Assembly: GCA_022508665.1 (NCBI GenBank)
Contig: JAFLUT010000005.1
Coordinates: forward strand, 1-52,082
Direction of reading: 5' to 3'
Origin: Prevotellaceae bacterium
GTDB taxonomy: Bacteria > Bacteroidota > Bacteroidia > Bacteroidales > Bacteroidaceae
Length of the DNA stretch: 52,082 nucleotides
Positions within the stretch are counted from its first letter, which is position 1; each line of letters starts with the position of its first letter. The notes below the pieces were generated by a model. That model was given only the letters and a program-made list of their open reading frames with translations, was not told the DNA's origin and did not search any database. A program made the translations under genes and the position numbers. Of this stretch, positions 10,178 through 16,058 are shown one piece after another.

Positions 10178-10863
10178 AAGAGTTTCTCTGCCAGCGGTAT
10201 CACTATGGCGGAAATGGCACCCATAAGGGCAATGGCTATTCCGCTCAGCGCTCCCTCTATTGCTCCGAGTTCAATAGCACGTGCAGTACCTACTCCATGA
10301 GCAGCCGAGCCGAGTGCGAGTCCGCGAGCCTGTGGCTGTTTCACACCTGTGCGGTCAAGCACCCAACTGCCAATGAGACTGCCAAATATGCCCGTTAGAA
10401 AAACCACTACGGAAGTGATAGAAACAATTCCTCCCAATGGCTCTGAGATAGAGACTGCTATCGGAACAGTCACTGATTTAGGGGCTATGGAAACGAGAAT
10501 CTCATGGCTTGCCCCCATTGCAGCAGCAATCCCTACCACACTGCCCACACCGACGATGCATCCTGTCAGTGTGGCTGTCAGTATTGCAATCGCATTGCCC
10601 CTAATGTGTTCGCTCTGCTCATACATAAGATAACCGAGCGATACAACAGACATTCCCAATAGAAAATCAAGAATAGACGTCGCCTCACGATATTGCAAAT
10701 ATTCTATCCCTGTTATTTTCAAATAGCCTATCATAAGCAAAAAAGTAAGCAGCACAGGGTGAAAAAGCGTAGTGCGTGTAGCCCTGTAAAGCGCTTGACC
10801 TCCGCAATATATCGCTATTGTCAAAGTAAGCAGAAAAAGATTTGACTTTATGACTTCGGTCAT
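10174..10863 (-). CDS. lrgB: LrgB/CidB-family membrane protein
   Basis: A 229-residue inner-membrane protein with six or so hydrophobic segments. It carries the family's conserved stretches KSVTVPIAVSISEPLGG and, near the C-terminus, GLALGSAAHGVGTARA. In Gram-positive bacteria LrgA/LrgB affect murein hydrolase activity and cell lysis, and related plant/bacterial LrgAB proteins transport small carboxylates such as glycolate or pyruvate. The actual role here is unknown. It lies 13 bp downstream of lrgA, forming the usual two-gene pair, at the end of the dnaN-led gene run. Confidence 0.9.
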   Translation of the reverse strand: MTEVIKSNLFLLTLTIAIYCGGQALYRATRTTLFHPVLLTFLLMIGYLKITGIEYLQYREATSILDFLLGMSVVSLGYLMYEQSEHIRGNAIAILTATLTGCIVGVGSVVGIAAAMGASHEILVSIAPKSVTVPIAVSISEPLGGIVSITSVVVFLTGIFGSLIGSWVLDRTGVKQPQARGLALGSAAHGVGTARAIELGAIEGALSGIAIALMGAISAIVIPLAEKLF

Positions 10864-10876
10864 GGTTACGTGCCTA

Positions 10877-11221
10877 TCAATGTTTATCTTTCCCTTTATA
10901 CATCCACTGCATAACGTGGCCCGTCGATACCATTACAAGCACCGTAGATACTGCTGCCGCCACCAATATAGCCCAGATGTTATCAGCAATTACACGGTAG
11001 GAAATAATCAGCCCTACTCCAAACGGCACAAAGCACACAGCCATATTTGCAGTAAGAAACTTCGCCGCCAGACGTACAGTGTCGGGATTTACCAAACGGA
11101 ATTTCAGAGCGGCAAAAAGCAGCACCATTCCAATAACATTGCCAGAAACCATACCTCCGACAAAGTTACTCAACACATTGCCAATCAGCCAAAAGAGCAA
11201 GATGTACATGATGCCGACCAT
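10877..11221 (-). CDS. lrgA: LrgA/CidA-family membrane protein
   Basis: A 114-residue, four-helix membrane protein of the holin-like LrgA/CidA family. Typical segments are LFWLIGNVLSNFV, SGNVIGMVLLFAAL, a loop LVNPDTVRLAAKFLTANM, and a C-terminal half beginning VCFVPFGVGLI. It presumably pairs with LrgB encoded immediately downstream. The start at 11221 gives MVGIMYI; a second ATG four codons later is equally possible. It follows coaBC by 22 bp, so co-transcription with the upstream metabolic/replication genes is likely. Confidence 0.88.
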   Translation of the reverse strand: MVGIMYILLFWLIGNVLSNFVGGMVSGNVIGMVLLFAALKFRLVNPDTVRLAAKFLTANMAVCFVPFGVGLIISYRVIADNIWAILVAAAVSTVLVMVSTGHVMQWMYKGKDKH

Positions 11222-11243
11222 AAGTGCCTTTGTCCTATTCTCC

Positions 11244-12509
11244 TTAGTCCTTTATGAATGTTTCCAACCTGTCGATGATGTCCTTTGCCACCTCCGCCTT
11301 AGTCTTCAGAGGATATTCCGTCTTGCCGTCTGCTGTGAGAATTGTGATTTTATTAGTATCGGTGCGGAAACCAGCCCCATTGTCTTTCAGACTGTTAAGG
11401 ACTATAAAGTCCAAGTTTTTCTTGCACAGTTTGGCTTGGGCATTGATTTCCTCATTGTTAGTTTCAAGAGCAAAACCTACCAGCGTTTGGTCTCCACGCT
11501 TAACTTTTCCGAGGGATGCTGCAATGTCGGGATTAGGCTTCAAAGTAAGCATCATGTTGTCGCCCGCACGCTTTATCTTCTCCGTCGCAACGGTTTCAGG
11601 GGCATAGTCGGCAACGGCAGCACACAAGATTGCCGATGTAGCAAAAGGAAACAATGCCATGCATGCTTCGTGCATTTCCTTGGCTGTTTCCACGTCGGTA
11701 CGTCGTATGTTTGGATGCTTCGTCTGCATTGCTGCTGACACAACGCCACAAACCAATTCCACCTCTGCTCCACGCTCAGCACATTCCTCGGCAAGAGCAA
11801 ATCCCATTTTGCCCGATGAATAGTTGCCAATGAAACGCACAGGGTCAATCTTCTCATAGGTAGGACCTGCGGTAATCAGTATCTTCTTGCCCCTCAAACT
11901 CTCCGCAGAAGAAGATGCGGCATCTTCTCCGAGCGCCCCATTCTCAAAAAACTCTTCAAGTTGCGCCACAATATTTTCAGGCTCTTCCATTCTGCCTTTC
12001 CCCTCCAGTTTCGATGCGAGAAACCCCGTGCCGGGTTCTATGATATGGTTGCCGTAAGACTGCAAAGTACGCAGGTTCTGCTGTGTTGAATGATGAGCGT
12101 ACATGTCCAAATCCATTGCAGGTGCGACGAACACAGGAGCCTTCATCGACAGATAAGTCGTAATGAGCATATTGTCCGCTATGCCATGCGCCATTTTCCC
12201 TATGGTTGACGCCGTGGCAGGCGCAATGAGCATAGCGTCCGCCCATAGTCCGAGGTCAACGTGAGAATGCCATGTTCCGTCTCGCTGCGCGAAAAAGTCG
12301 CTGATGACAGGCTTGCTCGTCAAGGCAGACAGAGTGATAGGGGTGATGAACTCCTTGCCAGCAGGGGTGATGACCACCTGCACCTCAGCCCCACGCTTGA
12401 TGAGTTGACGGATGATGAGACACGACTTATAGGCAGCGATGCTCCCCGTAATTCCGAGAACTATTTTCTTTCCGTTCAGCATACATTCTCCTTTCTTGCC
12501 TTTAAGCAT
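11244..12509 (-). CDS. coaBC: CoaBC: phosphopantothenoylcysteine decarboxylase / phosphopantothenate-cysteine ligase
   Basis: A bifunctional enzyme of coenzyme A biosynthesis in the cytosol, 421 residues. The N-terminal flavoprotein (CoaC) domain shows KIVLGITGSIAAYK, the catalytic His in GTWHSHVDLG and the PAMDLDMY motif. The ligase (CoaB) domain from about residue 205 shows KILITAGPTYEKIDPVRF, YSSGKMGFALAE, AAVADY and KIKRAGDN. Two in-frame ATGs, at 12509 and 12482, each follow a Shine-Dalgarno-like sequence. The first has AAGGAGGT 3 nt upstream and is preferred. The gene starts 1 nt past the exonuclease stop codon. In many Bacteroidetes recN follows coaBC; here lrgAB does. Confidence 0.95.
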   Translation of the reverse strand: MLKGKKGECMLNGKKIVLGITGSIAAYKSCLIIRQLIKRGAEVQVVITPAGKEFITPITLSALTSKPVISDFFAQRDGTWHSHVDLGLWADAMLIAPATASTIGKMAHGIADNMLITTYLSMKAPVFVAPAMDLDMYAHHSTQQNLRTLQSYGNHIIEPGTGFLASKLEGKGRMEEPENIVAQLEEFFENGALGEDAASSSAESLRGKKILITAGPTYEKIDPVRFIGNYSSGKMGFALAEECAERGAEVELVCGVVSAAMQTKHPNIRRTDVETAKEMHEACMALFPFATSAILCAAVADYAPETVATEKIKRAGDNMMLTLKPNPDIAASLGKVKRGDQTLVGFALETNNEEINAQAKLCKKNLDFIVLNSLKDNGAGFRTDTNKITILTADGKTEYPLKTKAEVAKDIIDRLETFIKD

Positions 12510-13416: not shown

Positions 13417-14541
13417 TTAGTCCTTCAGCATCATTGGCATCAAGAGCATGATGAGGTCTTCGTTCAGGTAAGGCCCTGCCGGGGTGATGACACCTGCACG
13501 GCTTGGGTCTGCAAGTTCCAGCACCACTTCATTGCTCGTTATGCTGTTCAGCACATCGAGGAGGAATGGGCCATTGAAGCCAATGCTCATTGCTGTGCCG
13601 TCATAGTCGCACATGAGGTGTTCCTCGGCAGAAGTAGAGAAGTCGAGGTCTTGTGCAGACACAGTGAGAGTGCCTTGGTCAACATGCAACTTGATGAGTG
13701 CGCTGCTCTGGCTTGCGAAGACGCTGACACGGCGCAATGCGCTGATGAAAGCCAAGCGGTCGGCTGTCACACGGAACGGATTGTCCTGCGGAATGACCGA
13801 GTTATAGTTAGGATAGCGGCCCTCTATGAGACGGCAACTGATAGTGTAATCTGGCAACTGTATTTCGGCATTACGCTCGTCAAAACGTATCAAAGACTCG
13901 CCCTCTGCCTTCGGAAGGACTGCCTTGAGCAACAACGCCGGCTTCTTTGGGAGGATGAATGCCGATGGCTCGTCTGAATGCACAGAGAACACCCTGTTTC
14001 TCACCAACTTATGACCGTCGCTCGCAACAAATGTGATGCTCTCTGGCGTCATGTCGAAATACACGCCATTCATCTGCGGACGGAGTTCATCGTCAGCCGC
14101 CGCAAAGAGGCAACGGTTGATGCCGTTCATCAGAATTTGAGAGTCTATGGCAATGCTGCGTGAGATGTCAGACACGCTACATGGCGAAGGGAACTCATAT
14201 CCGTTCTGCCCCACAAGGTTGTACTTTCCGTTCTGATAAGTTATCTCAATAGCAAACGTATCAGGGTCGATATTGAACGTGATTGGCTGCTCCGATATTT
14301 CCTTAATGGAACTGATGAGTTGCTTTGACCCAATGGCAAACTTCCCCTCTCCCTCTGCGTCAGTTATCTCAAGGGTAGTAATCATCGTCGTCTCGCTGTC
14401 GGACGCCGTCATCTTCAGTTCTCCGTTGGCGAGTTCAAAAAGTATGCAGTCGAGGATAGGCAAAGCGTTCTTGGAACTTTGCACTCGGCTTATAGTCTGC
14501 AGTCGGTTGCTGAGACTTGTGCTTGAAACATTAAATCTCAT
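13417..14541 (-). CDS. dnaN: DNA polymerase III beta subunit (sliding clamp)
   Basis: DnaN forms the ring-shaped dimer that tethers DNA polymerase III and many repair factors to DNA. The 374-residue length is normal. The sequence has the three-domain clamp character. SSTSLSNRLQTISRVQSSKNALPILD is the usual N-terminal helix, LLKAVLPKAEG and EGRYPNYNSVIPQD mark the middle domain, and the C-terminus ends LIMLLMPMML, forming the hydrophobic client-binding pocket. The promoter at 14566-14596 interleaves with that of the divergent DUF3127 gene. No dnaA lies beside it, as is normal in Bacteroidetes. Confidence 0.97.
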   Translation of the reverse strand: MRFNVSSTSLSNRLQTISRVQSSKNALPILDCILFELANGELKMTASDSETTMITTLEITDAEGEGKFAIGSKQLISSIKEISEQPITFNIDPDTFAIEITYQNGKYNLVGQNGYEFPSPCSVSDISRSIAIDSQILMNGINRCLFAAADDELRPQMNGVYFDMTPESITFVASDGHKLVRNRVFSVHSDEPSAFILPKKPALLLKAVLPKAEGESLIRFDERNAEIQLPDYTISCRLIEGRYPNYNSVIPQDNPFRVTADRLAFISALRRVSVFASQSSALIKLHVDQGTLTVSAQDLDFSTSAEEHLMCDYDGTAMSIGFNGPFLLDVLNSITSNEVVLELADPSRAGVITPAGPYLNEDLIMLLMPMMLKD

Positions 14542-14565: not shown

Positions 14566-14596
14566 CAAAGTTAGGGATAAGTTTTGAGAATACAAA
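14566..14596 (-). promoter_or_regulatory. Promoter of dnaN, interleaved with the DUF3127 promoter
   Basis: On the minus strand TTTG (14596-14593) is followed after 19 bp by TAACTTTG (14573-14566). The -33 box sits between the -33 and -7 boxes of the opposite promoter. Confidence 0.75.
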
Positions 14597-14613
14597 AAAA
14601 AAGCGTACTTTTG
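14583..14613 (+). promoter_or_regulatory. Promoter of the DUF3127 gene, interleaved with that of dnaN
   Basis: TTTG (14583-14586) and TACTTTTG (14606-14613) are separated by 19 bp. It overlaps the dnaN promoter, so RNA polymerase cannot occupy both at once. Confidence 0.75.
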
Positions 14614-14654: not shown

Positions 14655-15068
14655 ATGGAATTTACAGGACGAATAATAAAAGTTCTCGAACCTCGCGGAG
14701 GCGTGTCAAGCAGAACGGGCAACCCATGGAAAACACAGGATTTTGTCATTGAGGAAACCGTTGGTCAATATCCCAAAAGAATGGTCTTCAACGTATTCGG
14801 CGAGGAAAATCTCAGCAGATTTAACATACAGGAAGGTCAAGAACTGACAGTATCGTTTGACATAAACGCTCGTGAATATAACGGCCGCTGGTTCAACGAC
14901 ATACGTGTGTGGAACGTAGTGTCTGCACCCACAGCAGCACCTGCCGCACAGTCGTCCGAACCAACTGCTCAGCCCATTGCGCCATTCCCACCTGCGGAAC
15001 AGTCAGCAGCACCTGCGCAGCCAAGTTTTGACAGCACCGAAGACGACTCGAGCGACTTGCCTTTCTGA
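14655..15068 (+). CDS. DUF3127 protein with SSB-like acidic C-terminal tip
   Basis: A 137-residue cytosolic protein. Residues 1-90 (EFTGRIIKVLEPRGGVSSRT, GNPWKTQDFVIEE, RMVFNVFGEEN, ELTVSFDINAREYNGRWFND) match the DUF3127 family as I know it and have the beta-strand pattern of an OB fold. Residues 91-128 are a flexible Ala/Pro/Gln/Ser-rich linker. The end, EDDSSDLPF, copies the acidic tip of single-stranded DNA-binding protein (E. coli DDDIPF), which docks SSB partners. The domain plan, OB fold, disordered linker and acidic DxPF tip, is that of SSB. It is transcribed divergently from dnaN. ssDNA binding is inference; the family has no established function that I know of. Confidence 0.82.
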   Translation: MEFTGRIIKVLEPRGGVSSRTGNPWKTQDFVIEETVGQYPKRMVFNVFGEENLSRFNIQEGQELTVSFDINAREYNGRWFNDIRVWNVVSAPTAAPAAQSSEPTAQPIAPFPPAEQSAAPAQPSFDSTEDDSSDLPF

Positions 15069-15152: not shown

Positions 15153-16058
15153 TCAATATTCTATATAGGGTCTCAGTTTTTCTATATCTTCTGCCGTAAA
15201 GATGCCAGTGGCAAGGAGTGACTGCTCGTCTCTCACGTTCCCATATATACGTATGTATTTCAACAGATTACGGGCTTGGTCGTATGTGATGTACGGGTGG
15301 CTGTTAAGAGTCTGAAAAGACGCTCGGTTGATTGGCAATTTGGCCACTGCGACAGAATCGGTTACGGTAAACCATTCCAGCAGTTCAGGCGAAAAGATGC
15401 TGATTTCCAACAGTTGACGAGTAGTATAAAACCCTCCCAAACGTCCACGATAGCGAAGTATGGCATTGCTTATGCCTCCGCTAATCCCCGGAATGCGGCA
15501 CAAAGTTGCTGAATCGGCATCATTTGCATCAATTTTAGTCAGAGTGCTGAATTTATATTTGCTGCCTGTCGCTAAATCCATATTATGAGAAGCAGCATGC
15601 GCCCCTCTTGCCCTGCTCCGTTCCTTGCCCAAGTCCGCTACACGCACGTATGGAGCAAGCATCTCCACATCCTTAACAGTCCATCCGTAAGCAAAGCCCA
15701 TATCCTTTGCAGAACGAAAAACCTTGCCTGCGGCACGGAAACGCATATAGGTTCTGACTTTCCAAGGCTTAATGCCAAACTGGACAAGCGTAACAGAATC
15801 AACAGTATTGGGGTCGAATGGTTCAAGTGTGCGGACATCATTTCCCACCTGCCCACATTCTGCCTCAACGCTACCCGACAGAGGCGCACCGTCATATCCC
15901 TCTGTGGCAGACGCAACCTCCTCTCTGCCTTTCAGAGCATCTTCCACGACAAACACCCCTATGCATAATACGGCAATGCACCCCAAAGCCACCACTGCAC
16001 GGCGGTCGCCTTTGCGGAAAGAAAAGAAGTCACGAATATGGTTTTTCATGCGTGTCAT
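15153..16058 (-). CDS. Membrane-anchored helix-hairpin-helix (ComEA-like) protein
   Basis: A 301-residue protein with an N-terminal basic stretch and one transmembrane helix (AVVALGCIAVLCIGVFVV, residues ~20-37), then several helix-hairpin-helix-type repeats. They are seen in FDPNTVDSVTLVQFGI, DANDADSATLCRIPGISGGISNAILRY and INRASFQTLNSHPYITYDQARNLLKY, with a final ...FTAEDIEKLRPYIEY. HhH motifs bind DNA non-specifically; related ComEA proteins bind DNA outside the inner membrane during uptake. In Bacteroidetes such multi-HhH proteins are common and untested. An ATG three codons downstream (16049) is an alternative start, given the very short leader from the TATATTTG box. Confidence 0.8.
   Translation of the reverse strand: MTRMKNHIRDFFSFRKGDRRAVVALGCIAVLCIGVFVVEDALKGREEVASATEGYDGAPLSGSVEAECGQVGNDVRTLEPFDPNTVDSVTLVQFGIKPWKVRTYMRFRAAGKVFRSAKDMGFAYGWTVKDVEMLAPYVRVADLGKERSRARGAHAASHNMDLATGSKYKFSTLTKIDANDADSATLCRIPGISGGISNAILRYRGRLGGFYTTRQLLEISIFSPELLEWFTVTDSVAVAKLPINRASFQTLNSHPYITYDQARNLLKYIRIYGNVRDEQSLLATGIFTAEDIEKLRPYIEY

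Follow-up and report, generated by a model that had tools for sequence, protein, structure and literature searches.

Known SSB-type proteins and family DUF3127

Bacterial SSBs of family PF00436, among them E. coli SSB and B. subtilis SsbA, are composed of an N-terminal OB fold, a flexible linker and an acidic tip ending in PF. Published work describes this tail as a universal docking hub that every known bacterial SSB possesses (PMC3991886, PMC5016991). A second SSB-like protein per genome is also encountered in the form of SsbB/SsbC-type paralogues and of the short tailless SSBs from flavobacteria; all of them are PF00436 members, and the short ones display no tip. PriB possesses an OB fold similar in size to that of DUF3127 proteins. 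Its gene sits between rpsF and rpsR in E. coli and, to our knowledge, PriB carries no acidic PF tail.

Phage databases already call family DUF3127 (PF11325) 'ssDNA-binding protein'. Group PHROG_4932, which includes Cellulophaga phi10:1 gp21 and a LoVEphage protein, belongs to this same family, with a full-length match that extends to the tip. Its members are phage-borne and lie among recombination or replication genes, and their label 'single strand DNA binding protein' rests on annotation. In addition, an SSB from a Pantoea phage combines an RPA/OB-like domain and a DUF3127 domain (PMC8004638). Our literature search found no published study on the chromosomal DUF3127 gene. What is new here, and undescribed in the papers searched, is a putative second SSB-type hub that is chromosomal and near-universal in Bacteroidia and is kept where SSB is tailless. 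The expression 'new factor' used in the first-pass annotation was thus too strong with respect to the phage annotation. On the basis of sequences and a predicted structure, DUF3127 would be a second, dedicated SSB-type protein and hub of Bacteroidia, separate from PF00436 and able to carry the tail function in trans, a reading to which we give a probability of about 0.72.

The DUF3127 gene and its predicted fold

The window (i.e. the whole stretch of 52,082 nucleotides that was analysed) contains the DUF3127 gene at the coordinates, and with the C-terminus, first read from the letters alone. Its features are the following:

14655..15068, forward strand: DUF3127 gene, 137 aa, ATG to TGA, with PF11325 and PHROG_4932 matches; proposed SSB-like second ssDNA-binding hub
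14655..14924, forward strand: OB-fold domain, residues 1-90 (AlphaFold2, Foldseek, alignments)
14925..15038, forward strand: Ala/Pro/Gln-rich disordered linker, residues 91-128 (pLDDT 55-66, alignment)
15039..15065, forward strand: acidic SSB-like tip EDDSSDLPF (PF end in 165/168 distinct chromosomal homologues)

The translated ORF ends in ...SFDSTEDDSSDLPF. Its residues 2-88 matched Pfam DUF3127 (PF11325) with 98.4 bits for a cut-off of 27, which was the sole Pfam match of the protein, none being found to PF00436. PHROG_4932 was matched over the full length (residues 1-137 on profile positions 1-117 of 117, E 7.5e-18). Homologue alignments placed G5, W25, Q38, P40, G49, G61, W79 and W86 among the invariant or nearly invariant residues of the OB domain. 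The genome harboured a single DUF3127 gene and, elsewhere (G000:C60), a single canonical SSB. The nearest named public contigs originated from uncultured Bacteroidaceae/Prevotellaceae, mostly from the rumen.

A monomer model was built with AlphaFold2 from 83 window and locus sequences. Residues 2-90 formed a beta barrel (pLDDT about 95 for residues 1-90, low from residue 91) with predicted strands at 2-10, 14-17, 24-33 and 42-48, a helix at 50-56 and two further strands at 63-75 and 78-90. Foldseek comparison with the PDB ranked the SSBs of M. tuberculosis, M. smegmatis and M. leprae on top and PriB next (E 5e-5 to 1e-3), and the 47 matches at E <= 0.001 were SSB or PriB almost throughout. Against a viral library, DUF3127 proteins were among the best matches and phage SSBs made up many of the remainder. 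The OB fold proposed earlier for the N-terminal part was thus recovered as an SSB-like one in both the model and the Foldseek matches, and the SSB-like domain plan as a whole was further supported by tail conservation and phage context (see below).

At the sequence level, no homologue of solved structure was found (phmmer and profile searches). Alignment of the OB parts with PF00436 by hhalign gave E 0.07, and column-shuffled decoys were equally good. Membership of DUF3127 in PF00436 was consequently dropped, although two divergent DUF3127 relatives showed a sub-cut-off PF00436 match. By sequence, DUF3127 is a family separate from that of canonical SSBs. It shares with them the fold, linker and tip and would have a comparable genome-wide role, but it displays no profile similarity above noise and has its own gene beside that of SSB, and its barrel domain, at about 90 residues, is shorter. 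Likewise, it differs from the SsbB/SsbC-type and short flavobacterial proteins by family, and from the latter by its tip.

PriB structures 1woc, 2ccz and 4apv also figured among the best Foldseek matches, as would be expected of an accessory OB protein that acts like PriB in fork restart, bears an SSB-type tip and helps to load DnaB/PriA at stalled forks, without bulk ssDNA coating. Such a protein is nevertheless an unlikely candidate. The linker and the conserved tip are SSB features, and the neighbours of the DUF3127 gene are dnaN, an exonuclease gene, coaBC and a ComEA-like gene instead of rpsF/rpsR.

Tip conservation and distribution

The disordered linker and conserved acidic xPF tip of the SSB plan were both present in the family. 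A PF end, mostly DLPF, was displayed by 165 of the 168 distinct chromosomal DUF3127 proteins retrieved with a profile of diverse members, a count that could favour tailed sequences since this profile contains the tail. In a control with the tail-free PF11325 model on the relatives' genomes, the same three short copies were the only ones without PF among the matches read. These three exceptions are divergent extra DUF3127 copies of 97-102 aa. Divergent second copies of this length, devoid of linker and tip (L054, L055 and L056) and possibly borne by mobile elements, were recorded in three genomes of one genus. Conservation of the tip, the lack of which the first-pass annotation had named as a refutation, was therefore confirmed. 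Linkers varied in both length and sequence among homologues while the tip stayed, which argues for separate selection on the tip.

Phage proteins ended in PF in 60 cases out of 67, and three of the other seven displayed DLPF plus one extra residue. In phage loci L216, L225, L279 and L285, DLPF was followed by one to seven residues (DLPFD, DLPFS, DLPFN and DLPFDHGAYGR), so that PF is not terminal. On Runella plasmid pRUNSL03 (L129, 5001-5570), a DUF3127 OB domain was associated with an unrelated tipless C-terminal part, beside conjugation genes.

DUF3127 occurred in 71 of 72 other sampled Bacteroidia genomes (completeness >= 90%), nearly always as one copy and beside a separate canonical SSB. 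Relatives at order level or closer were represented by 33 good genomes, 30 of which carried it, and many genomes from other classes of the phylum carry it too. The idea that it substitutes for a second SSB was not pressed, since two PF00436 proteins occurred in many phylum members without DUF3127 and in some with it.

Canonical SSB tails in DUF3127 genomes

The tails of canonical SSBs were read in genomes both with and without DUF3127. Ten genomes from five families (G021, G057, G067, G072, G119, G270, G325, G341, G363 and G373; loci L082, L087, L307, L312, L397, L398, L399, L407, L448 and L449) encoded a sole detected PF00436 protein without PF end. Several of these stop directly after the OB fold, e.g. 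...EILLLGGK at 110 aa. The ATG of the next gene lies 9 bases past the ssb stop in G021, so that no frameshift-hidden tail is present there, and the frames past the stop were also checked in G057, G363 and G373. Genomes G270, G341 and G119 are single contigs of 99-100% completeness; the assemblies of G021, G363 and G373 are incomplete or of unknown completeness. A further apparent case, G052, was excluded as an artefact, since its sequence is masked and frame-shifted there and DDLPF is encoded in a different frame. The gene next after ssb in G021 and G067 is gldE-like.

DUF3127 ended in DLPF in all ten genomes with a tailless sole SSB, and its end was strongly acidic in family f28 (DDDDDLPF). 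Among single-SSB genomes, the SSB tail was kept in 62 of 73 with DUF3127 (the other 11 including artefact G052) and in six of six without it, the latter being too few for a statistical claim. DUF3127 is therefore not generally a replacement for SSB. Within the genus of the window, all 30 SSBs displayed a weakly acidic xYPF end (1.9 acidic residues among the final ten), versus a DLPF end with 3.1 for DUF3127 (Wilcoxon p 4e-6 for 30 paired genomes, to be read with their relatedness in mind). The window genome's own SSB ends in NNGEYPF.

This more acidic tip, together with the fact that the clients of one cell would encounter both tips, could suggest a regulator or decoy without tight ssDNA binding, the tip of which would compete with SSB for clients. 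We hold this to be improbable: the tip persists in the ten genomes whose single detected SSB has no tail, phages keep DUF3127 in the SSB slot, and the OB and aromatic residues are conserved. Competition for SSB partners, as first suggested, is probably too narrow a description. Supply of tails in trans fits better, because DUF3127 is tailed and the single detected SSB tailless in these ten genomes.

SSB-like tips were also observed on other proteins. In G270 and G072, where the sole detected SSB is tailless, a protein of about 503-505 aa that is DnaB by sequence (L504, G270:C1:787485-790502; L519, G072:C2:314653-317670) ends in ...MNDFDDDDDFPF, i.e. the helicase bears an SSB-like tail (DDDDDFPF). 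The window's own genome contains a 294-aa DNA-methylase-like ORF with an SSB-like CDDLPF end (L489, G000:C117 near 42467). As the search for DxLPF-type ends returned these DnaB tails and this ORF, DUF3127 is not claimed to be the exclusive extra tail carrier.

Phage homologues

Viral contigs were scanned with the single protein and with alignment A1, neither of which gave matches, and with alignment A2, which did. In Cellulophaga phi10:1, Maribacter Panino and Flavobacterium morran9-1, the DUF3127 gene adjoins exonuclease, Erf, NinG or primase/helicase genes. PHROG matches (E <= 1e-5) in IMG/VR contigs revealed exonuclease VIII, RecE, RecT, Erf, NinB/Orf, primosomal and replication-initiation families as near neighbours (<= 2.2 kb), and helicases, methylases and antirepressors at 3.8 kb or more on the same contigs. 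The primosomal and replication-initiation families would also suit the PriB-like function considered above. Yet no canonical SSB (PF00436 above cut-off) was detected in any of the six DUF3127-carrying phage records, which suggests a coating role; the sole weak PF00436 match in these records was the phi10:1 DUF3127 gene itself.

Genomic neighbourhood

The DUF3127 gene is preceded by a divergent dnaN, the two start codons being separated by 113 bp. The features of this region are:

13417..14541, reverse strand: dnaN, DNA polymerase III beta clamp, divergent neighbour (TIGR00663, 238.9 bits, cut-off 137.65)
14566..14596, reverse strand: predicted Bacteroidetes-type promoter of dnaN (consensus match; 14-bp overlap with the DUF3127 promoter)
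14583..14613, forward strand: predicted Bacteroidetes-type promoter of the DUF3127 gene, TTTG-N19-TAnnTTTG (exact consensus match in the 113-bp gap)

Among 49 relatives with divergent dnaN, strict matches to the DUF3127 promoter were found in 13 (0.4 expected from shuffling), to the dnaN promoter in 30 (0.55 expected) and to both in 12 (0.05 expected). Linked regulation of the two genes is plausible. An operon is excluded by their divergent orientation. A divergent dnaN occurred throughout the genus of the window and in Bacteroides, where the organization recN-coaBC-exonuclease-dnaN|DUF3127 was kept. At loci from families other than Bacteroidaceae no dnaN pairing was seen; the neighbours differ there, one being what we take to be a leucyl/phenylalanyl-tRNA-protein transferase gene, and dnaN adjacency was ruled out as a general functional link. 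The earlier claim of expression with dnaN is thus only partly borne out, the two genes being divergently oriented with promoters predicted to overlap, and their pairing being restricted to Bacteroidaceae.

Just downstream, a ComEA-like helix-hairpin-helix gene (15153-16058, reverse strand) converges on the DUF3127 gene. Elsewhere in the window, a 135-aa ORF without Pfam or NCBIfam match (10850-11257, forward strand) overlaps an opposite-strand ORF and may not be a gene.

Phages frequently encode DUF3127 homologues, which also occur on the Runella plasmid. Considered with the ComEA-like gene, this could point to an SSB of phage origin that was domesticated for a restricted purpose, e.g. competence or mobile-element transfer. 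This origin appears doubtful to us in view of the near-universal single copy across Bacteroidia and the core chromosomal surroundings of the gene, and no ComEA-like neighbour was found at the other DUF3127 loci read.

Proposed role and implications

As a second SSB-type protein, DUF3127 would coat or cap ssDNA at forks and gaps through its OB domain, and its tip may recruit SSB clients such as RecO, PriA, RecG, RecQ and similar proteins. The job of the SSB tail would be shared with DUF3127, or carried by it in some lineages. In genomes with a tailless SSB, the tails would be provided in trans by DUF3127 bound to the same ssDNA, which supposes joint occupancy by both proteins. A further-reaching proposal, which we advance tentatively from the sequence comparisons and at somewhat less than even odds, is that in Bacteroidia the C-terminal hub of SSB resides mainly in DUF3127, SSB thereby being free to lose its tail or, as in the genus of the window, to weaken it. 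If true, ssDNA coating and partner recruitment would be divided between two protein families, and SSB tail loss would have been repeated, in at least five families.

A near-universal Bacteroidia protein from another family thus bears the SSB tail, and complete genomes exist in which the single detected SSB is tailless, which makes the question of a hub in trans directly testable. A conserved gene that gut and environmental Bacteroidota share with their phages thereby gains a proposed function.
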